The notes beneath the pieces were generated by a model. The model was not told where the DNA came from. It saw only the letters and a list, made by a program, of their open reading frames with translations, and did not search any database. Of a stretch of 32,390 bases of DNA, positions 772 through 17,477 are shown in pieces. The DNA is from a virus: positions 1 through 32,390 of IMG/VR virus record IMGVR_UViG_3300030419_004825, one strand, 5' to 3'. Each line of letters begins with the position of its first letter. Position 1 is the stretch's first letter. A program made the position numbers and the translations under genes.

Positions 772-2175
772 ATGGCTAAGAGTGGTAAAGGCAAAAAGAA
801 GAAAAAAGAAAAACACGACCTAATTTATATAATGAATCCAAATTGTGGTTGGTGTAAGAAAGCAGACCCTGCTGTGGAATCTCTTATAAAAAAGGGTTAT
901 GAAATAACTACTCTGGATGTAACCAAACCAGAACAAGCAGAAAGAGCAAACGAGATTAAATCAAAACACAATGCACAATGTGGTACTCCATTATTCCTTG
1001 ATGCAGAAACTGGCAATCAGGTTTGTGGTTTCAGAGAAGATGTATTGGAAGATTGGGCAAAGGGTAAAGAAATCCCTGCACCCAAACCAAGGCCAAATTC
1101 TGACAGAAAAAGACCAGAAAGACATAAATTAGAATATATCTGGTTAGATGGAAACGACACAAAGAGAATTAGAAGCAAAGTTAGATATTCTATGCTTGCA
1201 CCAACAGCAAATGTACTACCTTCAATTCCAGAGTGGAGTTTTGATGGCTCAAGCACCAATCAAGCCGACACTGAAAACAGTGATTGTGTATTGAAACCTG
1301 TTAAGGTATTTCCTAATCCAATGGAATCTAGAAATCTACCAACTTATTATGTTCTATGTGAAGTTATGAATCCAGATGGAACACCACATGAATCAAATAC
1401 AAGAGCAAAACTAAAAGATGCAATCCTAAAATCTGATGTTGAACAGCATATGTTTGTAGGAATAGAGCAAGAATATATTATAACAGACCCAAGAACCAAC
1501 AAACCTCTTGGATGGGACAAGTACGATGGGGATACCCCACCGCCTCAAGGAAAATACTATTGTGGTGTTGGTGCAGAAACAAATGTTTCTAGAAACTTAG
1601 CAGAAGCACACGCAAATATGTGTATACAGAGTGGCATTTCTATAGATGGATTTCATCCAGAAGTTATGCTTTCTCAGTGGGAATACCAAACTGGCGTAGG
1701 AACACCATTAGACATTTCGGATAATTTATGGATGAGTAGATTTTTACTTCAAAGAGTTGGAGAAAGAATGGATGTTTCGGTTTCATATGACCCCAAACCA
1801 GTTGATGGCGACTGGAATGGTTCTGGCGCACACATTAATTTTTCTAATAGAGGAACTAGAGAAGATGAAGAACTTGGATATATCAATATTCTTTGCATGA
1901 ATCTTCAAGAAAGTCATAGTGAAGCAATTGCCGCATATGGAATTGGTAATCACAAAAGATTGACAGGAAACCATGAAACTTCTTCTGTGGAGAAATTCTC
2001 TTTTGGAGAGGGCGACCGTTCAGCATCAATTAGAATCCCAGTTTCTACAGCAAACAACGGAAGAGGTCACATAGAGGATAGACGACCATCGGCAAATATG
2101 GACCCATATGAAGCACTAACATATTTAGTTTCTTCGATTTCAAAAATCAATAAAGAATTAATGGTTGCTACATAA
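772..2175 (+). CDS. Glutaredoxin/thioredoxin-like domain fused to type II glutamine synthetase
   Basis: This 467-residue protein would make glutamine from glutamate, ammonia and ATP. After a lysine-rich N-terminus, residues 16-98 form a thioredoxin-fold domain with CGWC at 25-28 and a cis-proline-type CGTP at 70-73. A Pro/Lys/Arg-rich linker leads into a glutamine synthetase from about residue 119 to the end. It is of the type II (eukaryote-like) family rather than bacterial GSI. Visible signatures are WSFDGSST, GIEQEY (metal-binding glutamates), PEVMLSQWEYQ, GSGAHINFS, RLTGNHETSS, RSASIRIP and EDRRPSANMDPY, so the known catalytic Glu, His and Arg positions appear kept. The GS part is about 350 residues, the normal GSII length. 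An AAGGA-like ribosome site precedes the ATG. Redox control of GS by the fused domain is inference, as is a role in nitrogen supply for phage nucleotide synthesis. Confidence 0.93.
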   Translation: MAKSGKGKKKKKEKHDLIYIMNPNCGWCKKADPAVESLIKKGYEITTLDVTKPEQAERANEIKSKHNAQCGTPLFLDAETGNQVCGFREDVLEDWAKGKEIPAPKPRPNSDRKRPERHKLEYIWLDGNDTKRIRSKVRYSMLAPTANVLPSIPEWSFDGSSTNQADTENSDCVLKPVKVFPNPMESRNLPTYYVLCEVMNPDGTPHESNTRAKLKDAILKSDVEQHMFVGIEQEYIITDPRTNKPLGWDKYDGDTPPPQGKYYCGVGAETNVSRNLAEAHANMCIQSGISIDGFHPEVMLSQWEYQTGVGTPLDISDNLWMSRFLLQRVGERMDVSVSYDPKPVDGDWNGSGAHINFSNRGTREDEELGYINILCMNLQESHSEAIAAYGIGNHKRLTGNHETSSVEKFSFGEGDRSASIRIPVSTANNGRGHIEDRRPSANMDPYEALTYLVSSISKINKELMVAT

Positions 2176-2882: not shown

Positions 2883-3716
2883 ATGATATTATTAGACAAT
2901 AATCAGTTAGTTATTGCCAGTTTATTTCATGCAGTAAAATCAGAAAATGGACTAACAGAGGATTTGGTAAGACATCTAGTATTAAATATGTACAGGATGT
3001 ATAGAAAAAGATTCTCTGCTGAGTTTGGTGAGATTGTTATTTGCAATGATGGAAGGGAATATTGGAGAAAGGATTCTTTTCCGCAATATAAGGCAAACAG
3101 GAAAAGGCAAAGGAAATCTTCCAGTGTTGATTGGAGTGAATTTTATGACATTATGAATGTCATTCAGGATGAAGTGATTAAAACTTTTCCATATAAAAAT
3201 TTACAAATAAACAATGCAGAGGCAGACGATATCATTGCAATTATTAGTAAGCACAATCATAACAATGAGAAGATTCTTATAATTTCTAGTGATAAAGACT
3301 TTCAACAATTACAGAGATATGAGAATGTATATCAATATAGTCCAATCATAAAGGATTTTCTGATATGTGAAGACCCAGAAAACTTTTTACTTGAACATAT
3401 TATAAAAGGAGATTCTTCGGATGGAATCCCAAATATATTGTCTGATGATGATGTCTTTATTCAAGAAAATAAAAGGCAGAAGCCATGTGGCAAGAAAAAA
3501 GTAAACACGATTAAAGAGGAATTATCAGAATGGACAAATTCTGATAATTGGAACAGGAATCAAAAAATGATTGACATGAATATGATTCCAGAAGAAGTTG
3601 AAAGTTCTATACTTGAAGAGTATAATAAAGAACCAATTGGAAAAAGGAGCAATATATTAAATTATTTCATTCAGAACAATTTAAAAAATCTGATGGAAAA
3701 TATTGAGGAATTTTAA
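2883..3716 (+). CDS. rnh: T4 RNase H-like 5'-3' exonuclease
   Basis: This is a FEN-1/PIN-family 5' nuclease like T4 RNase H, which removes RNA primers and flaps during lagging-strand synthesis. Acidic metal-binding clusters of the family are visible: LLDNNQL near the N-terminus, INNAEADDIIAII in the middle and ISSDKDFQQLQ after it, followed by YQYSPI as in T4. A later GDSSDGIPNI segment matches the helix-hairpin entry of the family (GDxxDGIPN). Its length of 277 aa is slightly below T4 RNase H (305 aa). It is separated by 3 nt from the upstream gene and adjoins a tiny basic ORF. Confidence 0.92.
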   Translation: MILLDNNQLVIASLFHAVKSENGLTEDLVRHLVLNMYRMYRKRFSAEFGEIVICNDGREYWRKDSFPQYKANRKRQRKSSSVDWSEFYDIMNVIQDEVIKTFPYKNLQINNAEADDIIAIISKHNHNNEKILIISSDKDFQQLQRYENVYQYSPIIKDFLICEDPENFLLEHIIKGDSSDGIPNILSDDDVFIQENKRQKPCGKKKVNTIKEELSEWTNSDNWNRNQKMIDMNMIPEEVESSILEEYNKEPIGKRSNILNYFIQNNLKNLMENIEEF

Positions 3717-3893: not shown

Positions 3894-3930
3894 ATGTTAG
3901 TTGAAACATTTAGTGAACGGAGATTATATA

Positions 3931-4614
3931 ATGACAACAGCAACAGCAACGAAAATTTCAAAAGAAACACTAGAAATTCTGAAGAACTTTTCATCAATCA
4001 ATTCAAACATTTTGGTAAAATCTGGAAGCACATTAACCACAGTTTCCCCTGTAAAGAATGTAATGGCAGAAGCAACTGTGCCAGAATCTTTTGATACGGA
4101 ATTTGGCATATGGGATTTGAACAAATTTTTGGGTACAATTTCCCTATTCGATGCTCCAGAGTTTGAATTTAATGATAATTTTGTGAAGATTTTAAGTGGT
4201 TCAACAGAGGTGGTATACTATTACTGTGAACCAAAACTATTAACAACTGTTAGTAAGAAAATTACTATGCCAGATAGTGTATTAGATTTTACACTAAAGC
4301 AATCTGATTTGCTAGAATTGCAAAAGGCCGCATCCGTTATGCAACTTCCAGACATGGTAGTTCGTTCCGTTGGAAGTGATGTAGAACTTGCAGTTTTAGA
4401 TAAAAAGGATTCCACAAGCAACACATATTCAATTGGTGTAAATGTTACTACAGACGCAGAATTTGATTTTTACTTTAAAGTAGAAAACTTAAAAATGATT
4501 GGTGGCGATTACGATGTAACAATTTCCGAAAAGAAGATTAGTCAACTATCAAACACAAACGGAAAAGTTAAATATTGGATTGCACTAGAAACAGATTCAA
4601 ATTATAACGGATAA
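3931..4614 (+). CDS. 45: DNA polymerase sliding clamp (T4 gp45-like)
   Basis: This is the processivity clamp that tethers the phage polymerase and, in T4, also activates late transcription. It has 227 aa, matching T4 gp45 (228 aa). The sequence runs through ISKETLEILKNFSSIN, an early strand with SFDTEFGIWDLNKFLG, and late strands with DFYFKVENLKMIGGDY and VKYWIALETDS, all in the pattern of marine T4-like clamps. I chose the ATG at 3931 because a CGGAG ribosome site sits 8 nt before it. An upstream in-frame TTG at 3901 has no such support. The gene heads the clamp and clamp-loader operon, with the GDP-fucose genes directly behind it. Confidence 0.88.
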   Translation: MTTATATKISKETLEILKNFSSINSNILVKSGSTLTTVSPVKNVMAEATVPESFDTEFGIWDLNKFLGTISLFDAPEFEFNDNFVKILSGSTEVVYYYCEPKLLTTVSKKITMPDSVLDFTLKQSDLLELQKAASVMQLPDMVVRSVGSDVELAVLDKKDSTSNTYSIGVNVTTDAEFDFYFKVENLKMIGGDYDVTISEKKISQLSNTNGKVKYWIALETDSNYNG

Positions 4615-4617
4615 ATT

Positions 4618-5517
4618 ATGAAAATATTAGTTACAGGTGGTAGTGGTCTTGTTGGTTCTGCCATTACTGCTCATTTTAAACCAAGTCGCCATGAACTAGA
4701 TTTGATGGACATTGATGAAATCGTGGATTATATTGAGGAAAATGAAATCACGCATATCATCCATTGTGCCGCAAGAGTTGGCGGTTTAAAAGCAAACATG
4801 GAACATCTTGGTGAATTCTTTTACGAGAATATTATAATCAACACAAATGTATTGGAAGCGGCGAGAAGATGTGGAGTGGAGAAGGTTGTATCATTTATGA
4901 GTACTTGTGTATTTCCAGATGATGCAACTTATCCACTATCACCAGACCAGATTCACAACGGAGAACCACATCCATCAAATTATGGATATGCATATGCAAA
5001 GAGAATGTTAGAGGTGCAGAGTAGAGCATATCGGGAACAGCATGGATGTAATTTCGTTACGGTAATTCCCTGCAACATTTATGGACCAAATGATAACTTT
5101 GATTTGGATAGCAGTCATGTAATACCTGCATTAATTCATAAGTGTTATCTAGCAAAAGAGAGAGGTACAGATTTTGAAGTTTGGGGTTCAGGTCGTGCGT
5201 ATCGTGAGTTCGTTTATGTTGATGATGTTGCAACAATAGCAAAGTGGGTGCTTCATAATTATGATGACCCAGAACCCTTTATCATTTCACCAGATTTGGA
5301 AATAAATATGGCAATTTTGGCACAGACTATTTCCTTTAAGATGGGAGTTAATAAGATAGTTTATAATAACAAATATCCAGATGGACAGTTGAAAAAACCA
5401 TCTGATAATAGTATAATGAAGAGATGTTTACCAGATTTTGAATTCATACCAATTCAAGAAGGTCTGAGCAGAACAATTGATTGGTTTTTACAGGAATACG
5501 GAGTCCATTTAGTATGA
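4618..5517 (+). CDS. fcl: GDP-L-fucose synthase
   Basis: This short-chain dehydrogenase epimerises and reduces GDP-4-keto-6-deoxymannose to GDP-L-fucose. The Rossmann motif GGSGLVGS is at residues 7-14. The family signatures CAARVGG, STCVFPDD and YGYAYAKRM are present, with the catalytic Ser and the Tyr-x-x-x-Lys pair in place. It has 299 aa against about 320 for bacterial enzymes. It lies 3 nt after gp45 and overlaps gmd by 4 nt (ATGA), so the two steps of the pathway are translated together. Two GT10 genes downstream could use its product. Confidence 0.93.
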   Translation: MKILVTGGSGLVGSAITAHFKPSRHELDLMDIDEIVDYIEENEITHIIHCAARVGGLKANMEHLGEFFYENIIINTNVLEAARRCGVEKVVSFMSTCVFPDDATYPLSPDQIHNGEPHPSNYGYAYAKRMLEVQSRAYREQHGCNFVTVIPCNIYGPNDNFDLDSSHVIPALIHKCYLAKERGTDFEVWGSGRAYREFVYVDDVATIAKWVLHNYDDPEPFIISPDLEINMAILAQTISFKMGVNKIVYNNKYPDGQLKKPSDNSIMKRCLPDFEFIPIQEGLSRTIDWFLQEYGVHLV

Positions 5518-6530
5518 ATAAGATAGCACTCATCACAGGAATAAACGGACAGGATGGTTCATATCTAGCAGAGTTTCTATTGGACAAAGGATATTATGTT
5601 CATGGTATTTTACGAAGAAACTCAGTTGCAGAAAATCAGACTGCAAGACTGGATGACATTTTTAACCATGAGAGATTGAAATTGCATTATGGTGATTTAA
5701 CAGATTTGTCATCGTTAATTCATATTTTTCAAGATGTTCAACCATATGAAGTATACAACCTCGCGGCACAATCTCATGTGAGAATTAGTTTTGATGTTCC
5801 TGTTCACACATCACAGGTAGATGCAATAGGAGTATTGAATGTATTTGAGGCGTGCCGTATTTCTTGTCCTTATGCAAAGATATATCAAGCAAGTTCTTCG
5901 GAAATGTTTGGTAATTGTATTGATGATGATGGATTCCAAAGAGAAACAACACCAATGATGCCAGTAAGTCCTTATGGATGTTCAAAGGTTTATGCATTCC
6001 ATCTTGGGAGAAATTATAGAAATTCTTATGGGATGTATATTAGCAATGGCATTTTATTTAATCATGAATCTCCAAGAAGAGGTTCTAACTTTGTAACAAG
6101 TAAAATTGTTAAGGGTGCTATTGCAATAAAAACAGGAGAAGCAAAAAAACTTCGTATGGGAAATCTGGAAGCAAGAAGAGATTGGGGACATGCAAAAGAT
6201 TATGTAAGAGCAATGTGGATGATGTTACAACAAAACGAATCTGATGATTATGTTTGTGCCACAGGAATTTCACATAGCGTTCGTGATTGTTGCGAGTATG
6301 TTTTTGGCAAACTTGGAATGGATTATCAGGACTATGTTGTGTTAGATGAGAAGTATTTGAGGCCTGAAGAACTTCACGACTTAAAAGGCGATTCAAGCAA
6401 ACTTCGTAATGAAATTGGATGGATTCCAGAATATACTTTTGAAACTTTAATGGACGATATGATTGTTAATGATGAAAACTACAACAAAGCAGTTGAAGAG
6501 ATTCATGTACCATATGATGCAGTGAGATAA
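5514..6530 (+). CDS. gmd: GDP-mannose 4,6-dehydratase
   Basis: This enzyme converts GDP-D-mannose to GDP-4-keto-6-deoxy-D-mannose, the step before Fcl. The NADP-binding motif GINGQDGSYLAE lies at residues 9-20. Further family signatures are RRNSV, YNLAAQSHV, QASSSEMFG, SPYGCSKVYA (Tyr-x-x-x-Lys), LFNHESPRRG and RDWGHAKDYV. It has 338 aa, close to the usual 345-370. I chose the ATG at 5514, which overlaps the fcl stop as ATGA. The frame extends further upstream, but that would place 11 extra residues before a normal N-terminus. It ends 1 nt before gp44. Confidence 0.95.
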   Translation: MNKIALITGINGQDGSYLAEFLLDKGYYVHGILRRNSVAENQTARLDDIFNHERLKLHYGDLTDLSSLIHIFQDVQPYEVYNLAAQSHVRISFDVPVHTSQVDAIGVLNVFEACRISCPYAKIYQASSSEMFGNCIDDDGFQRETTPMMPVSPYGCSKVYAFHLGRNYRNSYGMYISNGILFNHESPRRGSNFVTSKIVKGAIAIKTGEAKKLRMGNLEARRDWGHAKDYVRAMWMMLQQNESDDYVCATGISHSVRDCCEYVFGKLGMDYQDYVVLDEKYLRPEELHDLKGDSSKLRNEIGWIPEYTFETLMDDMIVNDENYNKAVEEIHVPYDAVR

Positions 6531-6531
6531 A

Positions 6532-7470
6532 ATGAATAACGAATATTTATGGGTAGAAAAGTATCGCCCAAGAAAAATTGAAGATTGTATTCTACCACAA
6601 AGTATTAAAGATACTTTTCAACAAATGGTAGATGCGGGAGAATCACAGAATCTATTATTATCTGGAAGTGCAGGTTGTGGTAAGACCACCATTGCAAAAG
6701 CACTCTGTAACGAATTAGATACAGACTATATTATGATTAACTGTTCAGAAGATGGGAACATCGACACACTCAGAACAAAGATTCGTAATTTTGCAAGCAC
6801 AGTTTCAATCAATGGTGGCAAGAAGATTGTCATTCTTGATGAATTTGATTACAGCAATGCTCAATCAACACAACCTGCACTTCGGGGTTTCATTGAAGAA
6901 TTTAGTGATAATTGCCGATTCATTTTAACTTGTAATTTTAAGAATAGAATAATCGAACCAATACATAGTCGTTGCACTTGTATTCCTTTTTCTATTCCAA
7001 AGACAGAGAAACCTAAACTTGCATCTCAATTCATGGAGAGAGCAAAAGGCATTCTTGAACAAGAACAAATTGAATATGATGAGAAGGTAGTCGCAGAAGT
7101 TATAATGAAACACTTCCCAGACTTCCGAAGGGTAATTAATGAATTGCAACGGTATTCTGTTGCAGGAACTATAGATGTTGGCATACTCTCTACCATAGGA
7201 GAGATACACATCAAAGACTTGATGAAATATATGAAAAACAAAGACTTCACAAATGCACGAAAATGGGCAGTGGAAAATCTGGATAATGCACCAACAGAAT
7301 TGTTTAGAAAACTTTATGACGGATTGTATGATTCACTTACTTCTCCGTCAGTTCCTCAAGCAATTTTAGTTCTTGCGGAATATCAATATAAGTCTGCATT
7401 TGTGGCAGACCAAGAAATTAACTTAGTGGCATGTATTGTCGAACTTATGATGGGATGTGAATTTAAATGA
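6532..7470 (+). CDS. 44: Clamp loader large subunit (T4 gp44-like AAA+ ATPase)
   Basis: This ATPase opens the gp45 ring and loads it on primed DNA together with gp62. Walker A, GSAGCGKTT, lies at residues 45-53 and Walker B, VILDEFD, at 100-106. The SRC arginine-finger motif is at 146-148. The N-terminal WVEKYRPRKIEDCILP is typical of clamp loaders. Its 312 aa is close to T4 gp44 (319 aa). It follows gmd by 1 nt and overlaps the GroES-like gene by 4 nt. In T4 it would be directly next to genes 45 and 62. Here unrelated genes separate them on both sides. Confidence 0.93.
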   Translation: MNNEYLWVEKYRPRKIEDCILPQSIKDTFQQMVDAGESQNLLLSGSAGCGKTTIAKALCNELDTDYIMINCSEDGNIDTLRTKIRNFASTVSINGGKKIVILDEFDYSNAQSTQPALRGFIEEFSDNCRFILTCNFKNRIIEPIHSRCTCIPFSIPKTEKPKLASQFMERAKGILEQEQIEYDEKVVAEVIMKHFPDFRRVINELQRYSVAGTIDVGILSTIGEIHIKDLMKYMKNKDFTNARKWAVENLDNAPTELFRKLYDGLYDSLTSPSVPQAILVLAEYQYKSAFVADQEINLVACIVELMMGCEFK

Positions 7471-7760
7471 GTAAAAATTTTAAACCAATAGGAAAATGGG
7501 TCGCTGTCAAGACAGAATTAAGAAAAGAAAGAGTATCTGAAGCAGGTATTGTTTACAAAGAAGAAATTCAAAGTAATTTATATACTTGGAGTGATGTGGT
7601 GTCTGTCAGTGATGATATTTCGGAAGATGTTAGGCCGGGAGATAGAGTATATTGGAAACTAGGAACAAATAATGGCGCACATTATGAAGAAGACGGTGAG
7701 GTTTATGATTTGGTAAAAATAGATGATATTGAAGCGGTAGACCGTGATGAAACTGAGTGA
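7467..7760 (+). CDS. GroES-like co-chaperonin (T4 gp31 analogue)
   Basis: This 97-residue protein matches the Cpn10 fold. An N-terminal PIGKWVAVKTE strand is followed by the mobile-loop region EAGIVYKEEI. Next come DVVSVSDDI, the RPGDRVYWKLGT turn and the closing EVYDLVKIDDIEAV strand typical of GroES. Such phage proteins replace host GroES in folding the major capsid protein with host GroEL. It overlaps gp44 by 4 nt and gp62 by 14 nt, so it is cotranslated with the clamp loader, an unusual place for a chaperonin. Assignment rests on motif order; overall identity to GroES is clearly low. Confidence 0.78.
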   Translation: MSKNFKPIGKWVAVKTELRKERVSEAGIVYKEEIQSNLYTWSDVVSVSDDISEDVRPGDRVYWKLGTNNGAHYEEDGEVYDLVKIDDIEAVDRDETE

Positions 7761-8133
7761 TTATTTGGATGCTATAAACCATTCAAAGAAACCTTTAATG
7801 GATACTGAAGATGAGTCCGTAGAGAAAGGATACGCACCGTTTGTTGTTAATCGATGTTTGTCTTATTTTGTAGATACGGTATTATATTCTAATTATATGA
7901 ATCAATACCCACACATATCTGCAAAAATGCAATTTGATTATCTCTCTAGTTCTATCAGAAAAAGAAAAAGATTTAGTAAGTGGTTCAAGAAGGAAGAATC
8001 TAAAGATATAGAAATCATAAAAGAAATGTACGACTATTCGGATGCAAAAGCAAAAGATGTCATGCAATTATTAACACCCGAACAAATAAAAGAAATTGAC
8101 GAGTACCTTCATGGCCATGGTGTAAGGAAATAA
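7747..8133 (+). CDS. 62: Clamp loader small subunit (T4 gp62-like)
   Basis: This is the partner of gp44 in the clamp loader. The segment APFVVNRCLSYFVDTVLYSN, followed by KKRFSKWF-like residues and YDYSDAKAKDVMQLLTPEQI, matches the pattern of gp62 in marine T4-like phages. Gene order after gp44 and before RegA agrees with T4. The ATG at 7747 was chosen. A GTG one codon earlier (7744) is equally possible, and neither has a strong ribosome site. It overlaps the GroES-like gene. At 128 aa it is shorter than T4 gp62 (187 aa), as in marine relatives. Confidence 0.82.
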   Translation: MKLSDYLDAINHSKKPLMDTEDESVEKGYAPFVVNRCLSYFVDTVLYSNYMNQYPHISAKMQFDYLSSSIRKRKRFSKWFKKEESKDIEIIKEMYDYSDAKAKDVMQLLTPEQIKEIDEYLHGHGVRK

Positions 8134-8184: not shown

Positions 8185-8592
8185 ATGGAAAATAATGAAG
8201 ATATATTTCAAGGATTAGGTGTAGAGATAGAATTAAAGACGGAAGATGACTTTCTAAAGGTGAGGGAAACACTTACCAGAATGGGAGTGTCATCCAGAAA
8301 AGAAAAGAAACTTTACCAATCGTGTCACATTCTCCACAAGAGAGGAAGATATGCAATTATGCATTTTAAGGAATTATTTGAATTGGACGGTTTAGAATCA
8401 AACATTTCAGAAAATGATATTGGAAGAAGAAATGCCATTGCAAATTTACTTGATGAGTGGGGGTTGGTTAAGGTAATAGATGAGTTTGAAGAAGATGAAC
8501 CGATGTCTACAGTATCGCAAATAAAAATTATCTCACACAAAGACAAAGACGATTGGGAATTGGTCCCAAAATATCATATAGGAAATAGTTAA
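8185..8592 (+). CDS. regA: RegA translational repressor
   Basis: RegA binds the ribosome-binding sites of early phage mRNAs and represses their translation, including its own. The match to T4 RegA is direct: DDFLKVRETLTRMGV, LYQSCHILHKRGRYAIMHFK, ELDGLESNISENDIGRRNAI, LLDEWGLV and the C-terminal WELVPKYHIGN. It has 135 aa against 122 in T4. The difference is an N-terminal extension of about 11 residues and a few in the middle. An AGAGG ribosome site precedes the ATG. It sits at the conserved place after gp62 and directly before the glycan island, so it may repress island mRNAs too (inference). Confidence 0.95.
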   Translation: MENNEDIFQGLGVEIELKTEDDFLKVRETLTRMGVSSRKEKKLYQSCHILHKRGRYAIMHFKELFELDGLESNISENDIGRRNAIANLLDEWGLVKVIDEFEEDEPMSTVSQIKIISHKDKDDWELVPKYHIGNS

Positions 8593-8607: not shown

Positions 8608-9246
8608 ATGGATACACTTTTAATAAGTTTTTACAGTGACATAGAAGATAACACCTACTATAGTGACCATGCCAGAAGATTAATTTCAGAATGTGAGGAT
8701 TTAGAGATTCCACATGATATTAGAAAAAAAGAATCTTTAGGAAGTTATCAATTAAACTGTCTTAGTAAACCACAATACATTTTAAATATGTTGGAAGGAC
8801 TAAATCGTCCTGTTTTATGGATGGACATCGACAGCAAAGTCCATAAACCACTAGACATATTTGACCAATTTGATGAATCAGTAGATATGGTGGTAGCAAC
8901 TGCAAACGGAATGGTTTCTGGAATGAAAGCATCCCCTTTATATTTTGGCAATACTGACAAAGCAAAAGAATTTATAAATGCTTGGATTACAGCAACAACA
9001 GATATACTTGAAAATAATGTAGGTGTGTTTGACCACGAACCTTTGTTCGGTCTTATTCCTATGTTTATAAAAAAGATGAATATACAATATGTTGGTCCAC
9101 AATATTGTATTTGGCCGGGACACACTAACGAAAACACTTACATTACTATGGGTCTTGCAGACGCAGAATCAAAGAAAGAATCTTTGAGAAGTTTGGGAAT
9201 GGCAGAAGATTTAATAGAGTGGCAATCACCAGGAAATAAAGTATGA
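8608..9246 (+). CDS. GT-A fold glycosyltransferase, DxD type
   Basis: This 212-residue protein is a probable nucleotide-sugar-dependent glycosyltransferase. The metal-binding DxD motif occurs as VLWMDIDSKVHKP, with DID at residues 73-75. It follows an LNCLSKPQYILNML helix, as in GT77-like and related small transferases. Later residues DHEPLFGLIPMF match the acceptor-side Asp-x-Glu pattern of this group. It is the first island gene. No clear ribosome site precedes the ATG at 8608, while an out-of-frame ATG lies 13 nt earlier. It overlaps the next gene by 4 nt. Donor and acceptor are unknown. Confidence 0.7.
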   Translation: MDTLLISFYSDIEDNTYYSDHARRLISECEDLEIPHDIRKKESLGSYQLNCLSKPQYILNMLEGLNRPVLWMDIDSKVHKPLDIFDQFDESVDMVVATANGMVSGMKASPLYFGNTDKAKEFINAWITATTDILENNVGVFDHEPLFGLIPMFIKKMNIQYVGPQYCIWPGHTNENTYITMGLADAESKKESLRSLGMAEDLIEWQSPGNKV

Positions 9247-10172
9247 AAATACAAGGAATAGGATTACCATTTAGCCCCCACCAATCTTCTTGTTCTAACA
9301 GGAAACCAAAGAACTTTGAATGGACATATAATAATGCAGAAATACAAGTATGGATGGACATGCACATTCCTATTGGAACAACCAAAACTAAATTAAATTC
9401 TGATATTAAAAAGTATGGGTGGTTTTGCGAGTCTAGAGAAGTTGTTCCATATTTGCAAGATGCTTTTAATAGTCCAAAAGTATTAGATGAAATAGTAAAT
9501 GCATATGATGGAATATTCACATGTGACCGAGAATTGGTAGACAAACATGAAAAGATTCATTTCTGTCTTGCAGGAAGTAATTTGCCTTGGATTTCAGACC
9601 CCAAATCAGAAATATATGAAAAAACAAAATTGTGTTCTTTTATTGCTTCACAAAAAACGACCACTGATGGCCACAGACAACGACATAGAGTGTATGATAA
9701 ATTTAAAGTTAGGATACGAGGAGAAAACATTATGGAAATGTTCGGGACTATTACGGGAGAAGACTTTGGTGCAAATCCCGGTTGCCACATAGAATCTAAA
9801 ATTAAAATTCCGTGGCATGATAAAACTAGCGGATTGAAAGATTTTATGTTTTCCACAGTAATAGAGAATGCACGATACGATGATTACTTTACAGAGAAGA
9901 TAACCGACTGCTTTGCAACTGGCACGATTCCAGTTTATTGGGGAACAAGGAACATCGGAGATTATTTCAATACTGATGGTATTATCACGATTCCAGACGA
10001 TGGCCACGGTGGTATAGATTTAGAAATGTTGGACTTTATTATATCAAATAGATTGACACCAGACTTATATTATAGTAAAATGGATGCCATAAAGGATAAT
10101 TTTGAAAGAGTTAAAACTATGCAATTAGCAGACGATATGTTGTTTGAGAAAATACAGGAATTAAATAGATGA
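9243..10172 (+). CDS. GT10 family alpha-fucosyltransferase-like protein
   Basis: The C-terminal half carries the GT10 signature: FSTVIENA at 203-210, YFTEK at 215-219, and GTIPVYWGTRNIGDYF at 227-242. This matches the GDP-fucose binding region of bacterial and animal alpha-1,3-fucosyltransferases. The N-terminal half would be the acceptor domain. The phage also encodes Gmd and Fcl, which make the GDP-fucose donor, so the pathway is closed within this window. It has 309 aa, a normal size for a soluble phage or bacterial GT10. It is coupled by 4-nt overlaps on both sides. Acceptor and linkage are unknown. Confidence 0.85.
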   Translation: MKIQGIGLPFSPHQSSCSNRKPKNFEWTYNNAEIQVWMDMHIPIGTTKTKLNSDIKKYGWFCESREVVPYLQDAFNSPKVLDEIVNAYDGIFTCDRELVDKHEKIHFCLAGSNLPWISDPKSEIYEKTKLCSFIASQKTTTDGHRQRHRVYDKFKVRIRGENIMEMFGTITGEDFGANPGCHIESKIKIPWHDKTSGLKDFMFSTVIENARYDDYFTEKITDCFATGTIPVYWGTRNIGDYFNTDGIITIPDDGHGGIDLEMLDFIISNRLTPDLYYSKMDAIKDNFERVKTMQLADDMLFEKIQELNR

Positions 10173-10924
10173 ACTATATCACCTTCACAACTTCTGGTTC
10201 AGTAAAACTTTGTAAGAATTTTTTATTAAGTGTAAAGAAACTTGGCATGGAAAAGAATTTTACTGTTTATTGTTTAGATAAAGAATCTTTATCTGAAATT
10301 GGTGATATGGGAATTGAAACAAAGTTTTTCGGCATTAAAGGAATTCGGTCTGGATTCCACGAATACGGCAAAAATGATTTTAGAAGAGTCACAGAAGCAA
10401 AAATACAAATAATAATAAACGAATTAAAAGATAAAGGTTCTTTGGTATATACGGATTGTGATGTGGTCTTCAGGCACGACCCAACACCATTTATTGAATA
10501 TTCTAATGAAGAAACTAAAGACAGAGAAGTGGATATAATTTTTGCATCAGACAATCCGTTCATGACAATATGTACTGGATTTATGTACATAAAGAACACA
10601 GAGAAAGTTCATGAATTGTTTAAAAAATATTTTGAGTTTAGTAGAATGTACGGTGTGGGTGGAAGTGAATGCATGTATGACCAAGAAATTATATTTAAGA
10701 TATTAACAGAACATCATTTGTCTTTTAATGAAAAAGAAAAATTGGTATGGGGAGTTTACCCAACAGACTTTGTAAAGAATGGTCATCTATATTGGAACGA
10801 ACCAGAAACAAGAACAGGAAATGAAGCAGTAGTTCATGTGAACTTTACGATAGGTGAAGAAAACAAGATAAATAGATTAAAGGAAGCAAACCTTTGGTAC
10901 AGTGAAAAGGAAGTTACATTATGA
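10169..10924 (+). CDS. GT-A fold glycosyltransferase (GT77-like), DxD type
   Basis: This probable glycosyltransferase reads YITFTTSGSVKLCKNFLLSV at the start, then GSLVYTDCDVVF with the DCD metal site at 96-98, then ICTGFMYIKNTE. This order of strands is typical of the nucleotide-diphospho-sugar transferase family that includes plant GT77 arabinosyl- and xylosyltransferases. A late CMYDQEIIFKIL resembles the family's D-Q-x-x-x motif. Its 251 aa is a complete single domain. It overlaps both neighbours by 4 nt. The donor sugar cannot be told. Confidence 0.8.
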   Translation: MNYITFTTSGSVKLCKNFLLSVKKLGMEKNFTVYCLDKESLSEIGDMGIETKFFGIKGIRSGFHEYGKNDFRRVTEAKIQIIINELKDKGSLVYTDCDVVFRHDPTPFIEYSNEETKDREVDIIFASDNPFMTICTGFMYIKNTEKVHELFKKYFEFSRMYGVGGSECMYDQEIIFKILTEHHLSFNEKEKLVWGVYPTDFVKNGHLYWNEPETRTGNEAVVHVNFTIGEENKINRLKEANLWYSEKEVTL

Positions 10925-12570
10925 GTATACCCGCAATATGCCACAACGCACATTATCTTTTTGAAGATGGAGTATTGGAATTTGATAGTCCAGTAGAAAT
11001 ACATGTTACTCGGTTTTCCGATAATATGAAGAAAATAGCCCCCAATGAAACCGAGTTTTCATTATCTTGTGAAAACTATCCAAGATATAATATACCATTT
11101 AAGGACTCAACTTCATATAGAGTTTTTATTAATTGTAACGAACCGATAACATCGCCCCATAGGGATAGTATAGAAGCAGTTATAGCAAACCATGACCAAT
11201 ATGATTTGATATTGACTACAGATGATTTGATATTGAATAATTGCAGTAATTCAGTTTTATTTCCTTATGGAACAACATGGTTGAATAAAGGAAGAATAGA
11301 CGATGAAAATGCAATAGGACATTATTCTTCTATAATTGATGAACTTCATAAAGATAAAAAATTTGAAACTAGTTTTTTGTGTTCGTTTCATGCAAGAGAA
11401 TTGGAAGGATATGAATTAAGAAAAACTGCTTGGTTGCTGATTATGAATAATACAGAAGCAGTAAAAACCCCTACCAACTTTTATAGCAGTCCAAGAATGC
11501 TTATACCCAATGCTCCAGAATGGTATTACGAAAGATTTAGGGATTTTATTGAAAATCCTTTGCCAAACGACAGTAAAGATGTTTTATTCTCTTCTCAATT
11601 TCATCTATCAATAGAAAGTACAAAAGTTAAGAATTATTTTACAGAAAAATTAATCGATGCATTAATTACAAAAACAGTTCCAATTTATTGGGGATGTCCA
11701 AACATTGGTGACTTTTTCAACGAAAAGGGAATTATTCAAGTAGATTCTATAGAAGATATAGTGAAGACAATTGACGAACTTACACCAGAAACATATGAGA
11801 GTATGTTGCCGTATATTGAAGAAAATTTTGAAATTGCAAAAGAGTATGCCTCCTCATTTGCAGAAAGGGTTAAGGGGGAGATTTTAAATCATATAAAACC
11901 AAAAGAAGAAAAAGAAGAAAAACAATACAAAACAGTAAATCTCAAACATGGTGTAGAAAAATTTCCAATAAAGGGTCATAAAAATGAAAAACTATTGACT
12001 ATAGGAATACCTTCGTTACATGAAAGAAAAGAAAGTCTGAACGAACTTTTAGCCTTCATAGATTCTACTACAAACGAAAAAAATATTAAAAAATCTAAAG
12101 TAGAAATTATAGTAAATTTGGATGATGGCGAAAAGACCGTAGGACAAAAAAGAAATGAAATTTTGGAACAGGCAAATGGAAAATTTATTTGTTATGTTGA
12201 TGATGACGATAAGATTGATGAGGATTATATAAATCTAATTCTTAAAACTATTGAAGAAAATCCAGAACTTGATTGTATAGGATTTACAGGAATGTATTAT
12301 GTCAATGGTGAACCAACCATGCTGTTCAAACATGCAAAGGAATATGGTGGTCATTATAAGAAAGAAGGAATTCAATACAGACCAGTGAATCACTTAAATC
12401 CTGTTCGTACTGAATTAGCACAACAGATAGGATTCCCTGAAAAGAACTTTGGGGAAGATAGTGATTATTGTGATAGACTACTTGAATCTGGTCTATTAAA
12501 AAACGAAGTAATACTAGACAAGGTGATGTATCATTACTTATGGAATAGTGAATTAACAAGGACCCATTAA
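10921..12570 (+). CDS. Two-domain glycosyltransferase: GT10-like fused to GT2
   Basis: This 549-residue protein joins two transferases. Residues 1-325 contain a GT10-type C-terminal signature: FHLSIEST at 227-234, YFTEK at 239-243, and TVPIYWGCPNIGDFF at 252-266. That is the same pattern as in the preceding GT10 gene. A charged linker (PKEEKEEK, about 327-334) leads to a GT2 domain from about 357 to the end. It has LLTIGIPSLHERKESLNELL, GQKRNEIL and the metal-binding VDDDD at 426-430, plus an acidic FGEDSDYCDRLL catalytic-loop segment. It could add two sugars in turn. The order and specificity are unknown. Confidence 0.85.
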   Translation: MSIPAICHNAHYLFEDGVLEFDSPVEIHVTRFSDNMKKIAPNETEFSLSCENYPRYNIPFKDSTSYRVFINCNEPITSPHRDSIEAVIANHDQYDLILTTDDLILNNCSNSVLFPYGTTWLNKGRIDDENAIGHYSSIIDELHKDKKFETSFLCSFHARELEGYELRKTAWLLIMNNTEAVKTPTNFYSSPRMLIPNAPEWYYERFRDFIENPLPNDSKDVLFSSQFHLSIESTKVKNYFTEKLIDALITKTVPIYWGCPNIGDFFNEKGIIQVDSIEDIVKTIDELTPETYESMLPYIEENFEIAKEYASSFAERVKGEILNHIKPKEEKEEKQYKTVNLKHGVEKFPIKGHKNEKLLTIGIPSLHERKESLNELLAFIDSTTNEKNIKKSKVEIIVNLDDGEKTVGQKRNEILEQANGKFICYVDDDDKIDEDYINLILKTIEENPELDCIGFTGMYYVNGEPTMLFKHAKEYGGHYKKEGIQYRPVNHLNPVRTELAQQIGFPEKNFGEDSDYCDRLLESGLLKNEVILDKVMYHYLWNSELTRTH

Positions 12571-12571
12571 T

Positions 12572-13480
12572 ATGTCAAAGAATATAATTAGTTTCAGTTT
12601 ATGGGGAGATAACCCATTTTATAATGTTGGTGCAATAAGAAATGCACAAAATGCATTACAACATTACGAAGAGTGGATTTGTAAGTTTTACATAGGAACA
12701 GATGTTCCAAAACAAACTGTCAAAGAACTTAAAGATATGCCTAATACAGAAGTAGTCATTATGGAAAATGAAGGAAATAGTTGGCCTGGAATGTTTTGGA
12801 GATTTTATGCTATATCAGACCCAGACGCAGAGTTTGTTATTTTTAGGGATACCGACTGTAGATTGACCAACCGAGAAGCACAAGCAGTAGGAGAATGGAC
12901 AAGAACAGATAAGTGTCTTCATATTATGAGGGACCATCCAATGCACACTGAACCAATTATGGGCGGAATGTGGGGAGTTAATGCCCCAAGTTTTATGAAA
13001 AAGTGTAGAGAAATGTGGGAAGACATCGACAATTCACCTATCACAATGAAAGATATTATTGATGGTTGGATTTCAAACGAAAAGAGAAGAACAGAAATGT
13101 ATGAACCGAGTTGTTTCCAAGAGTGGGAGTACGATGCCAGAGGAATAGACCAAAAGTTTTTGAGAGCATTTGTTTACAAGTTATCATGGTCGGATTCATT
13201 CATCCACGACAGTTTTCCTCAATATAATTCCTTTTCGGGAAGATTTGATTATCAGAGATATCCAGGCCTGAAAGAAATGAGTACAGGGTTTCCAACGGTA
13301 AGAGAGGATTGGAATGATTTTGTTGGACAAATTTGGGACGAGAACGAAATTGCTAATGAAGAATCCGCTGTGTTTTTAAAACGAAGAGATGAATGTATTT
13401 ACATGGACTGGAAAAAGTCTGACGATGCTATTCCAGTAGAAAAAGACACTCTTTACACCACAGAGGAGAATGTAATATGA
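12572..13480 (+). CDS. Glycosyltransferase, DxD type, tandem paralogue A
   Basis: This 302-residue protein opens with IISFSLWGDNPFYNVGAIRN and has WPGMFWRFYAISD followed by FVIFRDTDCRL, where RDTD at 92-95 is a GT-A metal site. HIMRDHP and GGMWGV follow. The next gene shares the same skeleton, showing a tandem duplication. An AAGGA ribosome site lies 9 nt before the ATG. This is the only island junction without overlap (1-nt gap), and the downstream junction overlaps by 4 nt. The C-terminal third (from about 240) differs from the paralogue. Donor and acceptor are unknown. Confidence 0.75.
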   Translation: MSKNIISFSLWGDNPFYNVGAIRNAQNALQHYEEWICKFYIGTDVPKQTVKELKDMPNTEVVIMENEGNSWPGMFWRFYAISDPDAEFVIFRDTDCRLTNREAQAVGEWTRTDKCLHIMRDHPMHTEPIMGGMWGVNAPSFMKKCREMWEDIDNSPITMKDIIDGWISNEKRRTEMYEPSCFQEWEYDARGIDQKFLRAFVYKLSWSDSFIHDSFPQYNSFSGRFDYQRYPGLKEMSTGFPTVREDWNDFVGQIWDENEIANEESAVFLKRRDECIYMDWKKSDDAIPVEKDTLYTTEENVI

Positions 13481-14310
13481 AAAAGGTAATAAGTTTCAGT
13501 TTATGGGGAGATAATCCAAACTATACTATTGGAGCGGTTCTTAATGCCGATATAGCAGAGAAAGAATGGCCGGGTTGGACTTGTAGATTCTACATTGCAC
13601 CAACTGTTCCAGATGGAATTGTAGAAGAATTAAAATCAAGAGATAATGTAGAAGTTGTTCTCATGGACGAAGATGAATCTTGGAATGGAATGTTCTGGAG
13701 ATTTTACCCTGCATCGGACACAGGTGTAGATGTAGCAATTTTTAGGGACACCGATTCTCGTATGCATATTAGAGATAAGGCCGCAGTAGAAGAATGGATT
13801 GAAAGTGATAAGGGTGTCCACATAATGAGAGATAATTGCCAGCATGGTTGGGTAATTTGTGGCGGTTTGTGGGGAACTAAAAGAGGTGCAATTCCAGAAT
13901 TAAAGCAAAGAATAGAAGATAATGAAATGCTTAAAAACAAAAACTTCAATAAACATGGAGTAGACCAAATATTTCTGCAATATACAATATACCCCCTAAT
14001 AAAAGAAAAGGCATTCGTTCATGATGATTGGTTTCCTGACGGATTTGTAGGAGAAGAAAAGCATCCATTCCCAATTCCAAGATTAAGGGGAGATGGTTGG
14101 TGGAATCAAGAGTTTCCAGAATGGCATGGTGGTAAAGAGGATGACCCAGAAAAATATCCGCATTGGTTTGGAGAAGATGGCCAAGGACATTGTTTTTTAA
14201 AGTGTCCGGCATGTGGAGAATATCATGACAACGAATATCTAGGAAAAGTAACAATGCTAACAAAAGAAGAAGAAGAGAAATATTCTCATCTATTAGGAGT
14301 TAAAGTATGA
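13477..14310 (+). CDS. Glycosyltransferase, DxD type, tandem paralogue B with Cys-x-x-Cys tail
   Basis: This paralogue of the preceding gene has VISFSLWGDNPNYTIGAVLN, GMFWRFYPASD, VAIFRDTDSRM (RDTD at 90-93), HIMRDNCQHGW and GGLWGT. DQIFLQYTIYPL is the acceptor-side segment. After about residue 200 it diverges into a Trp-, His- and Pro-rich stretch. It ends with CPACGEYHDN at 243-252, a possible zinc-binding turn (Cys-x-x-Cys with nearby His) that the sister protein lacks. It has 277 aa, with 4-nt overlaps both sides. Donor and acceptor are unknown. Confidence 0.75.
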   Translation: MKKVISFSLWGDNPNYTIGAVLNADIAEKEWPGWTCRFYIAPTVPDGIVEELKSRDNVEVVLMDEDESWNGMFWRFYPASDTGVDVAIFRDTDSRMHIRDKAAVEEWIESDKGVHIMRDNCQHGWVICGGLWGTKRGAIPELKQRIEDNEMLKNKNFNKHGVDQIFLQYTIYPLIKEKAFVHDDWFPDGFVGEEKHPFPIPRLRGDGWWNQEFPEWHGGKEDDPEKYPHWFGEDGQGHCFLKCPACGEYHDNEYLGKVTMLTKEEEEKYSHLLGVKV

Positions 14311-15221
14311 AAATTGATAAGGTAGTATTTTCCACATCGGAAGAATATAGTGGATTTTGGAACATTCAATCCAAAGTATACAAGGAAGCACTAGGAATAG
14401 AGCCAGTTTGCTTGTTGTTTGGTAAGAAAGAAAATACCAACATGACAGAAGAATATGGTACTATCATTGAACGAGAGTTTATTGAAGATTTGCCAAAGGT
14501 TATTCAGATAACTTGGTCTAAATTTGATTTTCCAAAGACTGAACCAGACACTACTTGGATGATTGGTGACATTGATATGATTCCCCTACAACGATATTAT
14601 TTCACCGAACACATATCTGATGCAAAAGAAGATGCTTACTTGCATTTGAATCTTGCCGGCATATCTTTGCCAAGAAGAGGTTCTTTGGATGCTTTTATAA
14701 CAGAAGGTTCGGAAGCACATTGCAGAGATAGAGGAAGTTATAATACTGGTGCAGATTTAGCAGGACATTATCATGTTTCTAAAGGTTCAAACTTTATAAA
14801 GGTATTTGATTTGGATAGACCATTTAGGGAACAAATTGAATATATAACATCTGCACATCGTTACGGTCTAGGTCCTGCGGGACAAGCAAAAAAACCAGAA
14901 GGTATAGACGAGGTAATGAATGCCGGCAGTTATTACTGGTGTGCAGAAGAAAGTTATTCTTCAGAAAGAATATGGAATGCCATGACGGCTAAAGAAATTG
15001 TATTTGGTGGTTATTGTTATCACAATTCTCTCAATAGAGTTGATAGAAGTACATGGAATAATGACATTAAAGAATATCAATATGACCCGGCCAGACTAGC
15101 AAATGGAAGAGATATTGTTGATATTCATTGCGAAAGACCATACGAAAAGCAAGAGGAAGCACTAAATAGGATTATAGAATTATCTGGTATTTTATCGCCT
15201 GTGGAAGCAATTAGTGAATAA
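14307..15221 (+). CDS. Probable glycosyltransferase with DxD motif
   Basis: This 304-residue protein starts with a beta-alpha unit (VVFSTSEEYSGFWNIQS). WMIGDIDMIPL, with DID at 88-90, is the expected GT-A metal site. A YNTGADLAGHYHV segment and later YWCAEESYSSERIW may form acceptor or donor contacts. It resembles hypothetical proteins of polysaccharide clusters more than any CAZy family I can name. It overlaps the previous gene by 4 nt and the kinase-aldolase by 8 nt. A glycosyltransferase role is inferred from the motif and position only. Confidence 0.6.
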   Translation: MKIDKVVFSTSEEYSGFWNIQSKVYKEALGIEPVCLLFGKKENTNMTEEYGTIIEREFIEDLPKVIQITWSKFDFPKTEPDTTWMIGDIDMIPLQRYYFTEHISDAKEDAYLHLNLAGISLPRRGSLDAFITEGSEAHCRDRGSYNTGADLAGHYHVSKGSNFIKVFDLDRPFREQIEYITSAHRYGLGPAGQAKKPEGIDEVMNAGSYYWCAEESYSSERIWNAMTAKEIVFGGYCYHNSLNRVDRSTWNNDIKEYQYDPARLANGRDIVDIHCERPYEKQEEALNRIIELSGILSPVEAISE

Positions 15222-16629
15222 GATTATTGCAATATCTGGAAGTTCTGGAGTCGGGAAAACAACAATATCCCGACTTATTTCCATTGCTTTGCCAAATGAA
15301 AAAACTTTGGTATTTAGTGGAGATGACCTGCACAGATGGGAGAGGGGAGATGAAAATTGGAAAACATATACACACCTAAACCCAGAAGCAAATAATCTTC
15401 TATTGGGATATGAACATTTAAGAACTTTAAAGAGCAACAACAAGATAGTTCACAGGAAATATAATCACGATACTGGAAAGTTTGACCCAAGCATAGATGT
15501 GTATCCTGCGAAGTTTATAGTGTATGAGGGCCTTCATGCACTTTATGATGTTCGGGTTAGGGATTTATCTTGGATTAAAATATTTGTAGATACTGATGAA
15601 TCCTTAAAGAAAGAATGGAAGATTAAAAGAGATACTCAAAAAAGAGGATATACCAAAAAGCAGGTCGAAGATGCAATGTCTAGAAGAACTGCCGATGAGA
15701 AAAACTACATTACACCACAAAGAAAATATGCTGATGTTATAATTCGTTTTAAGAAGGATAACGATAGAGTATTATTAACTTATGAGTTGATAAATCCTGA
15801 AGCAAAAGAATTAATGGAAATGTTATCTGTAGCATACAACAAACATTTTGAATTTATTGATGTTTGTAATTCGCTGTCAACGGACTTCAATCTAGTGCAA
15901 AGTCGTGGTGGAAATGTTTCTTATAAAATAAATGATAAATTAATAATAACTTCTTCTGGTTCAAAGATGTCGGATGTAACTACATTTAGTGGTCATTGTA
16001 TTTGCAACATACATTTACTTCCTTCATACTTTAATGATGAAACTTTTTATACAAATAAACTTATGAAATCCAAACTATTTGAATCCAATGAAAGGCCTTC
16101 TATGGAAACTGGGTTGCATAGCAATTTAGAAAAATGTATAGTACACACTCACCCAATTTATTTGAATGTTATATTATGTTCAAAAGAATCTGAGAATATA
16201 ATAGAAGAAATATTTTCTGATTTGGATTATGAATTTGTTATATACTCTAGCCCTGGCATAGAATTGTCAAATGCAATAGGAAGTTACAGAGAAGCATCAG
16301 TTTATTTCCTACAGAATCATGGGTTGGTGGTTTGTGATGATAATCTCAGCAATGCTTATGAACTGACTAAATATATTAATGAAGAAAGTAGAAAATGGTT
16401 AGAGAAAAATAAAAGAGATTTTCATTGGAAAATAATGCCTGATAATGTCAATAGTCCAGATTATCTTTTTCCAGATGCTGTAGCATTAAGTGAAGAAAAT
16501 TCAAATGTAAATAATTATCTCTATAAGGGTATAGTAAATATAGGACTGACTCCAAACTTTTTAAATGGCGAAGAAATAGATAAGATAAAGAATATGGAAT
16601 CTGAGAAATACAGGAGAAGTTTAGTATGA
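15214..16629 (+). CDS. Phosphoribulokinase/uridine kinase-like domain fused to class II aldolase
   Basis: This is a 471-residue two-domain enzyme with a GTG start. Residues 1-180 form a P-loop kinase of the phosphoribulokinase/uridine kinase family: GSSGVGKTT at 9-17, YEGLHALYDVRVRDL at 104-118, and WKIKRDTQKRGYT followed by YADVIIRF. The spacing is notably like that of phosphoribulokinase. Residues from about 205 to 400 are a class II aldolase/adducin domain. It has SRGGNVSY at 230-237, SSGSKMSD, PSMETGLH at 295-302 (candidate catalytic Glu 298), the zinc ligands in HTHP at 311-314, and NHG at 368-370. A kinase that phosphorylates a small sugar or polyol next to an aldolase acting on a sugar phosphate suggests one short pathway. 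The substrates are unknown. Confidence 0.85.
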   Translation: MNKIIAISGSSGVGKTTISRLISIALPNEKTLVFSGDDLHRWERGDENWKTYTHLNPEANNLLLGYEHLRTLKSNNKIVHRKYNHDTGKFDPSIDVYPAKFIVYEGLHALYDVRVRDLSWIKIFVDTDESLKKEWKIKRDTQKRGYTKKQVEDAMSRRTADEKNYITPQRKYADVIIRFKKDNDRVLLTYELINPEAKELMEMLSVAYNKHFEFIDVCNSLSTDFNLVQSRGGNVSYKINDKLIITSSGSKMSDVTTFSGHCICNIHLLPSYFNDETFYTNKLMKSKLFESNERPSMETGLHSNLEKCIVHTHPIYLNVILCSKESENIIEEIFSDLDYEFVIYSSPGIELSNAIGSYREASVYFLQNHGLVVCDDNLSNAYELTKYINEESRKWLEKNKRDFHWKIMPDNVNSPDYLFPDAVALSEENSNVNNYLYKGIVNIGLTPNFLNGEEIDKIKNMESEKYRRSLV

Positions 16630-17477
16630 AAATTATTGTGCCTATGGCAGGAACAGGAAATAGATTTGTTCAGGCTGGATATGAAGACCCAAAACCACTC
16701 ATTAGAATAAATGGAAGAAGAATAATAGAATATATCTTGGATATGTTTTCAGATGACGATGAGTTTGTCTTTATTTGTAATGATGTCCATTTAGAAACAA
16801 CAAATATGCGTGAAGTATTAGAAGAACTAAAACCAAACGCAAAGATTATTTCTATGCCACAACACAAAGGTGGACCAGTTTATACTGTACAGGTTGCATA
16901 CGATGAGATAGATGACGATGAAGAAGTAATAGTTTCATATTGTGATAATCCGTATCTATGGAACAGAGAGGATTTTATTTCAAAAGTAGAAAATCTCGAT
17001 GGTTGTGTTTTGACACATACAGGATTTCACCCCCATACTCTTGCATCAACTAAAATGGCCTTTGTAAAGGATAAAGATGGGTTGTTGGAAGAAATAAAGG
17101 AGAAAGAATGCTACACAGACAATCCTATGGACGAACACGCATCAACAGGCATCTATTACTTCAGAAAAGGGTCTTACATTAAAAAATACTTTGATGAATT
17201 AGTCGAGAAAGATATTAACTATAATGGTGAATATTATGTAACTTTGGTGTATAACCTTTTAGTGGAAGATGGATTGACTGTTGGTTACTATGACACCCCA
17301 TATGTTACTGTGTTTGGCACACCAGATGAAGTTGAGAATTTTGAAGCATGGGCCAGCATTCTAAAGGGAAGTCAAGTTAAGAGTGAAGAAGATTTATTGA
17401 AATGTTATAATTATTGGAAAGGATATCATGAAAGTAGTGAACAAAGAAGAAAACCTGCGGTTCTCGCCAGAGGGTGA
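16626..17477 (+). CDS. Sugar-phosphate nucleotidyltransferase
   Basis: This 283-residue enzyme of the NTP-transferase family would activate a sugar or polyol phosphate with CTP, UTP or another NTP. The N-terminus IIVPMAGTGNRFVQAGY, then PKPLIRINGR, is the diagnostic nucleotide-binding loop with its Lys. VIVSYCDNPYLW holds the metal-binding Asp strand. DEHASTGIYYFRKGS and NGEYYVTLVYNLLV are typical product-side segments. It overlaps the kinase-aldolase by 4 nt and the HAD gene by 50 nt, so it probably uses a product of those enzymes. The nucleotide and substrate cannot be read from the motifs. Confidence 0.88.
   Translation: MKIIVPMAGTGNRFVQAGYEDPKPLIRINGRRIIEYILDMFSDDDEFVFICNDVHLETTNMREVLEELKPNAKIISMPQHKGGPVYTVQVAYDEIDDDEEVIVSYCDNPYLWNREDFISKVENLDGCVLTHTGFHPHTLASTKMAFVKDKDGLLEEIKEKECYTDNPMDEHASTGIYYFRKGSYIKKYFDELVEKDINYNGEYYVTLVYNLLVEDGLTVGYYDTPYVTVFGTPDEVENFEAWASILKGSQVKSEEDLLKCYNYWKGYHESSEQRRKPAVLARG

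Follow-up and report, generated by a model that had tools for sequence, protein, structure and literature searches.

Type II glutamine synthetase (GS) is already on record as a viral gene. It was assigned to viruses in the Global Ocean Sampling data in 2007 (in the accessible part of PMC1821046), GS is reported from nine moraphages in the accessible text of PMC12619734, which offers a further standalone viral GS for comparison, and a passage of the review PMC9083009 treats viral ammonia assimilation; in the portions of PMC8115048 and PMC3474794 that are accessible GS is mentioned only in passing, and in that of PMC7824862 it occurs only in the references. Among the matches listed, 594 of 599 IMG/VR stretches that fit a GS pattern encode a GS relative, and INPHARED records of huge phages hold standalone GSII at 43-45% identity. 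Since viral GSII is thus evident in IMG/VR, in huge phages and in print, its presence alone is not news, and the statement of an earlier note on this DNA that GSII is unusual in viruses does not hold. Phage nitrogen genes are usually listed singly as auxiliary metabolic genes, and the GS considered here is encoded on a phage genome, as are the known phage auxiliary GS genes. The 180 plasmid records of GS are all below 60% identity and represent ordinary bacterial GSII.

Thioredoxin controls plant GS2, and host thioredoxin serves as a binding domain for the DNA polymerase of phage T7. Here we describe a T4-like virus in which GS, a recurrent gene of the T4-type replication region, is covalently joined to a virus-specific putative redoxin, an arrangement shared by at least 30 contigs. 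The earlier note knew of no described phage enzyme with this fusion, and our searches agree: a full-length fusion is present in none of the 50,697 INPHARED phage records at 80% coverage, both parts are evident in no viral protein among the best 50 matches of a BFVD fold search, and no publication on a viral or phage GS–thioredoxin fusion was found in the literature searched, which consisted mostly of papers outside subscription.

The fusion gene occupies positions 772-2175 on the forward strand of the window, by which we mean the entire stretch of DNA analysed, a 32,390-base and possibly fragmentary T4-like virus record. It is a single open frame of 467 codons with an ATG start and zero internal stops, and aaggaatcaaaataATG upstream of it is a plausible ribosome site. 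The 467-amino-acid product comprises, in order, a lysine-rich tail, a thioredoxin-fold module, a proline-rich linker and a complete type II GS, and its AlphaFold2 model, made with a 22-row alignment, has a mean pLDDT of 83.3. The open reading frame, the Pfam matches and the model thereby confirm the proposed joining of a CGWC/CGTP thioredoxin-fold domain to a complete type II GS. Because the same single-frame fusion recurs in at least 30 distinct contigs, an assembly frameshift, which the earlier note had named as a refutation, or a chimera is ruled out. Contamination by a cellular contig was also rejected, as the neighbouring genes are T4-like and the module was found in none of 80 cellular GS loci.

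The two segments outside the folded domains are variable. The tail (772-816, forward strand; residues 1-15, 53% lysine, with pLDDT below 50 at residues 1-11) differs among relatives, and 16 of the 30 fusions have at least two cysteines there (e.g., MACKCGK). The lysine-rich N-terminus singled out earlier is therefore real in the window but not general, since these 16 have a cysteine-containing tail instead; it is one form of a variable N-terminal tail. Short cysteine-rich tails, possibly metal-binding, precede the module in L004, L013, L015, L021-L024 and L074 (e.g., MACKCGKNKDCKC). The linker, which is predicted to be flexible (1066-1128, forward strand), has 21 residues in the window protein, with pLDDT below 50 at residues 108-110, and varies from 18 to 42 residues across the 30 fusions, with 26% proline and 17% glutamine. 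An internal ATG start yielding free GS was considered and rejected, as a methionine within the last six linker residues occurs in only four of the 30 fusions and the window protein has none.

The C-terminal domain (1126-2172, forward strand; residues 119-467) belongs to type II GS by Pfam, sequence and structure. It matches Gln-synt_N over residues 120-201 with 42.1 bits (Pfam cut-off 33.4) and Gln-synt_C over residues 221-454 with 71.5 bits (cut-off 24), and AlphaFold2 places the GS fold at residues 116-466. The best sequence match among solved structures is Streptomyces coelicolor GS (4bax; E 2.4e-89, residues 119-455), to which the model aligns with a Z of 43.0 and an rmsd of 1.8 over 339 residues at 45% identity. 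GSII enzymes gave E values from 8e-78 to 2.4e-89 in the PDB sequence search and Z values of 36-43 for the solved structures, as against 1e-12 or weaker and about 30-32, respectively, for the others. The twelve positions that we take to form the active site are invariant in 108 aligned GS domains, the sole exception being one cell at N349 that holds an unknown residue, in keeping with the earlier observation that the active-site motifs are retained. Glutamine is the expected product of the GS half. The whole GS fold and the active-site positions are common to the window GS and to cellular type II enzymes (4bax; maize 2d3a; human 8dnu), whereas the latter lack the N-terminal module and linker and stand apart from the viral GS clade. 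Against the NCBIfam GlnII equivalog NF041605 the domain scores 349.2 bits, less than the cut-off of 500, so that it is not filed as a GlnII equivalog.

The module (817-1083, forward strand; about residues 16-104) carries CGWC at residues 25-28 and CGTP at residues 70-73, its four cysteines being Cys 25, 28, 70 and 85. Its modelled topology (E17-21 H26-40 E45-49 H53-65 E74-77 E83-85 H89-96) is that of thioredoxin, and the beta-alpha-beta-alpha-beta-beta-alpha core, CxxC motif and cis-Pro-like loop that define the thioredoxin superfamily fold are all found in the predicted structure. The module structure from L043 gave its best match to thioredoxin 9bxs_E (Z 9.8, rmsd 2.6, 80 residues), with others within one Z unit. 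Sequence profiles place the module less firmly: the window scores 16.3 bits against PF00462 Glutaredoxin (cut-off 22.9) and has no match to PF00085 Thioredoxin at E 0.01, L126 and L118 reach 19.9 and 22.0 bits against PF00085 (cut-off 23.5), phrog_22 'thioredoxin domain' covers the module weakly with a partial profile (E 0.0037 for the window and 0.0015 for L118), and the module by itself drew only weak matches from a sequence search of the PDB. Thus, the fold, the CxxC and the cis-Pro-like TP are shared with the thioredoxin/glutaredoxin family (bacterial Trx and phage NrdC/NrdH-type proteins), but the module differs in its CGWC, in the extra invariant C70 and C85 and in scoring below curated cut-offs. 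A relationship to the glutaredoxin encoded beside RNase H in phage S-H38 was considered and rejected (weak, probability 6.5).

Of the 79 module reading frames listed, 78 retain all four cysteines and the 79th is cut by a contig end. Conservation extends beyond the active site to a C-terminal segment of W-(A/V)-x-G-E type with a proline after it. Because the scores fall below the Pfam Thioredoxin and Glutaredoxin cut-offs, we infer redox activity from the fold and the CxxC; the module is probably a dithiol oxidoreductase. Judged from the fold topology, the four cysteines may cluster around the cis-Pro loop, which would make a metal site possible.

The occurrence of the two parts was surveyed with motif patterns, so that all counts are lower bounds; L222 (CGWCKR), for example, was missed by the module scans and recovered by the GS scan only. 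Collapsed by contig, the module and GS scans identify the fusion in at least 30 distinct viral contigs, the window included, and GS without the module in at least 72; the first scan gave four further fusions and two standalone GS. The module scans find the module in at least 78 IMG/VR contigs. Among the 78 listed, the C-terminal partner, with the module-tail classes assigned from short end motifs and length, is GS in 28, a coiled coil in 25, a short helical tail (B/C type) in 13 and a longer tail (D type) in nine; it is unclear in three. The module is therefore borne without GS in 50 of the 78, three of these 50 having an unclassified tail. One copy is present in 19 of 20 records, the exception being G001, which has standalone GS and no module. 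RNR is carried by G008, G009, G010, G013, G015, G016 and G017, which bear the module and lack GS.

Among viral standalone GSII of T4-like and huge phages (L006, L007, L215, LR756501, LR745206 and LR756502), the GS is of the same type as that of the window and several occupy the same gp46–gp45 locus as the fusion, yet the module is missing, and the 29 further module-less GS records likewise have no clear separate module gene (one weak match of 46 residues). A weak match upstream of the LR756501 GS (KGGEIPP) was rejected as a module, as a stop codon intervenes. Counting duplicates, the 141 viral and 80 cellular rows of GS that were listed show no other N-terminal GS fusion; long stretches upstream of a few cellular rows look like frame read-through. 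In 84,980 prokaryote genomes, none of 14 pattern matches was confirmed as a relative of the module. INPHARED yielded no match to the window module (E up to 0.01) or to the C-type and B-type proteins (E up to 1), and a single weak match (E 0.06) to one coiled-coil-type protein. Within the searches made, the module family is apparently undescribed.

The fusion resides in a conserved T4-type replication region with the order methyltransferase–GS–RNase H–gp45–gp44. In the window, where all of these genes are on the forward strand, the fusion is preceded by the 3' part of a DNA-methyltransferase-like gene (cluster C9, 1-759; phrog_498, E 2.8e-7) and followed by the conserved neighbours C11 (2179-2571; a cluster of 25 loci) and C12 (2568-2879; weakly like CBM_5_12), a T4-type RNase H, or 5'-3' exonuclease (2883-3716; PF02739, PF09293 and phrog_107), a gp45-like sliding clamp (3901-4614; PF09116 and phrog_223), a gp44-like clamp loader (6532-7470; PF00004 and PF21328), a gp62-like clamp loader subunit (7744-8133; PF16790) and a RegA-like translational regulator (8185-8592; PF01818). 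Among cultured phages, the RNase H has its best-listed matches in Methylophilales phage Melnitz and in Synechococcus phages, with identities of 44-48%. Of the 29 fusion loci that were mapped, 26 have the methyltransferase immediately before the fusion, 26 have RNase H and 28 have gp45. Module-less GS of the same viral clade is at this locus in 12 of 17 cases, the methyltransferase following GS in L220 and L221 and missing in L225; the other five (L223, L224, L227, L228 and L269), which form a sister group, are near UvsX and/or DnaB-like genes.

Modules with other partners have other surroundings. Coiled-coil and D-type genes belong to a separate replication block (DNA polymerase, module, SSB, UvsX, RNase H-like, DnaB), and B/C-type genes are located elsewhere, near nucleoside deoxyribosyltransferase and dehydrogenase genes. 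Two small conserved genes, C5 and the cysteine-rich C4, flank the coiled-coil and D-type modules between DNA polymerase and SSB (L064, L103 and others). A glutamine riboswitch is described for phage Melnitz in the accessible text of PMC9004378; neither the window nor ten fusion loci (115,360 bases) gave an Rfam match to one at the gathering score.

A GS tree of 108 rows (28 fused, 40 module-less viral and 40 cellular) was built after removal of identical GS, with L261 skipped and with only odd-numbered loci taken from the cellular set and from the module-less viral loci above L228. All fused rows fall inside a 45-row viral clade (SH-aLRT 99) that is separate from cellular GSII, and the fused state takes four changes, at least three of them forced by starred branches. 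In a module tree of 66 rows and 95 columns, in which many forks are unresolved, the GS-linked and B/C-linked modules form one clade (99/87) in which they are interleaved; the GS label takes five changes, again with at least three forced by starred branches. Together, the trees indicate repeated exchange of the C-terminal partner or repeated loss of the module. In 99% of 394 fusion pairs the two modules are more alike than the two GS domains (mean identity 0.677 versus 0.526); set against RNase H or gp45, the module is the better conserved in about two thirds of fusion pairs. These comparisons are biased because most loci were found through motifs inside the module.

The explanation we favour, to which we give roughly an even chance, is that a flexible tether joins an active GS to a virus-specific module, a redoxin or a docking domain, which works autonomously at a task of its own and is not mainly a GS switch. 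The fusion gene would then encode a bifunctional protein of a T4-like phage. Its C-terminal part would be a working type II GS, presumably expressed alongside the DNA-replication genes, that during infection supplies glutamine, and with it the amide nitrogen needed to make nucleotides, cofactors and sugars. The N-terminal virus-specific module, a probable dithiol oxidoreductase on a flexible proline-rich tether, would perform a task common to all carrier phages, in which it either reduces or docks onto a partner that acts close to replication or to nucleotide metabolism, and the fusion would bring this task and glutamine synthesis into one oligomer instead of acting mainly to turn GS on and off. 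The attachment of the module to other proteins in related phages suggests a role of its own beyond that of a simple GS switch, and an independent function is also indicated because the module persists without GS and GS persists without the module. If the module were simply autonomous, however, some two-gene versions with separate GS and module might be expected, and the lack of a clear example among the 30 module-less GS records leaves room for a real coupling to GS.

A bolder form of this explanation, which we put forward tentatively, is that the module is a shuffled four-cysteine redox, and possibly metal-binding, cargo adaptor of T4-like phages, tethered through proline-rich segments to a GS oligomer in one lineage and to coiled-coil or helical tails in others, that places enzymes at the replication or nucleotide-synthesis machinery. 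If so, glutamine synthesis would be a physical part of phage DNA replication. The locus thus raises two testable questions, namely whether nitrogen assimilation and replication are physically coupled and what a four-cysteine module does with changing partners in at least 78 contigs.

Considerably less likely than the favoured explanation, in our judgement, is that the thioredoxin fold serves chiefly for binding and brings GS, or other C-terminal partners, to a phage replication or nucleotide-synthesis assembly. The swapped C-terminal partners and the proline-rich tether, the position of the fusion, coiled-coil and D classes among replication genes, and the conserved W-(A/V)-x-G-E type segment with its proline are all consistent with docking, and anchoring of GS to a partner through the module is viable. 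Nevertheless, a pure docking domain would have no need of the four cysteines, all of which are kept, and the B/C-type genes are not placed with these classes.

The proposal that the tethered redoxin reduces or oxidises GS cysteines, so that the redox state of the host sets glutamine supply, is unlikely, a little more so than docking. In its favour, the fusion forces the two parts into proximity, C196, C264 and C284 of GS are conserved and C375 mostly so in the 108-row alignment, and glutamine synthetase, thioredoxin and redox regulation are mentioned together in listed papers, several of them on plants and cyanobacteria. Viral GS lacking the module, and most cellular GS, have these cysteines just as well, however, and no cysteine in the GS part is specific to the fusions among the 108 aligned domains. 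In addition, the module is missing from related GS genes at the same locus, 50 of the 78 module contigs listed carry it without GS, and a proline- and glutamine-rich linker of 18-42 residues does not suggest a defined interface. The lack of a fusion-specific cysteine and the flexible linker weaken redox control of GS, and the suggestion in the earlier note that the fusion lets the redox state of the cell set glutamine supply gained no positive support.

We consider it improbable that the module is a phage glutaredoxin or thioredoxin that donates electrons to RNR and was fused so that two nucleotide-supply steps travel together. An RNR match is present in eight of 12 records with the thioredoxin-like module only (one of them a contig-end fragment; seven of 12 by PF02867), 9bxs_E, the best structural match of the L043 module, is the thioredoxin of the Bacillus subtilis RNR complex, although tied with many other thioredoxins, and the glutaredoxin gene of the cultured cyanophage S-H38 lies two genes before its RNase H. 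By contrast, RNR is found in none of seven fusion records by PF02867 and in none of 13 by protein search, records that are fragments but include two of 123 kb and 85 kb, and G001, with module-less GS, has RNR. This difference between fusion and thioredoxin-only records weakens service to RNR, and since redox control of GS is weakened as well, we favour an active GS that carries an autonomous module, redoxin or docking domain, on a tether. Least credible by far is that two useful phage genes became one reading frame by chance with no functional consequence: the repeated gain or loss of the module on the GS tree would fit, but the fusions span GS identities down to 0.42 and none of the 30 module-less GS records has a clear unfused module, indicating that where both parts are present the joined state is kept.

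Outside the replication genes, the window carries a large glycan cassette (4618-6530 and 9243-24847) with genes for GDP-mannose dehydratase, epimerases, a GT10 fucosyltransferase-like protein, a GT47 exostosin-like protein and UDP-glucose dehydrogenase. In the window and in many relatives, gp45 and gp44 are separated by an inserted epimerase/dehydratase pair from this cassette. One open reading frame (15214-16629) pairs a uridine-kinase/phosphoribulokinase-like domain (PF00485) with a class II aldolase (PF00596), an unusual combination, and a phage NAD synthase is encoded at 19013-19864 (PF02540, E 1.2e-51). Finally, a collagen-repeat protein (25451-26710; PF01391) is followed by a gene for a 626-amino-acid protein that weakly resembles a virion structural family.
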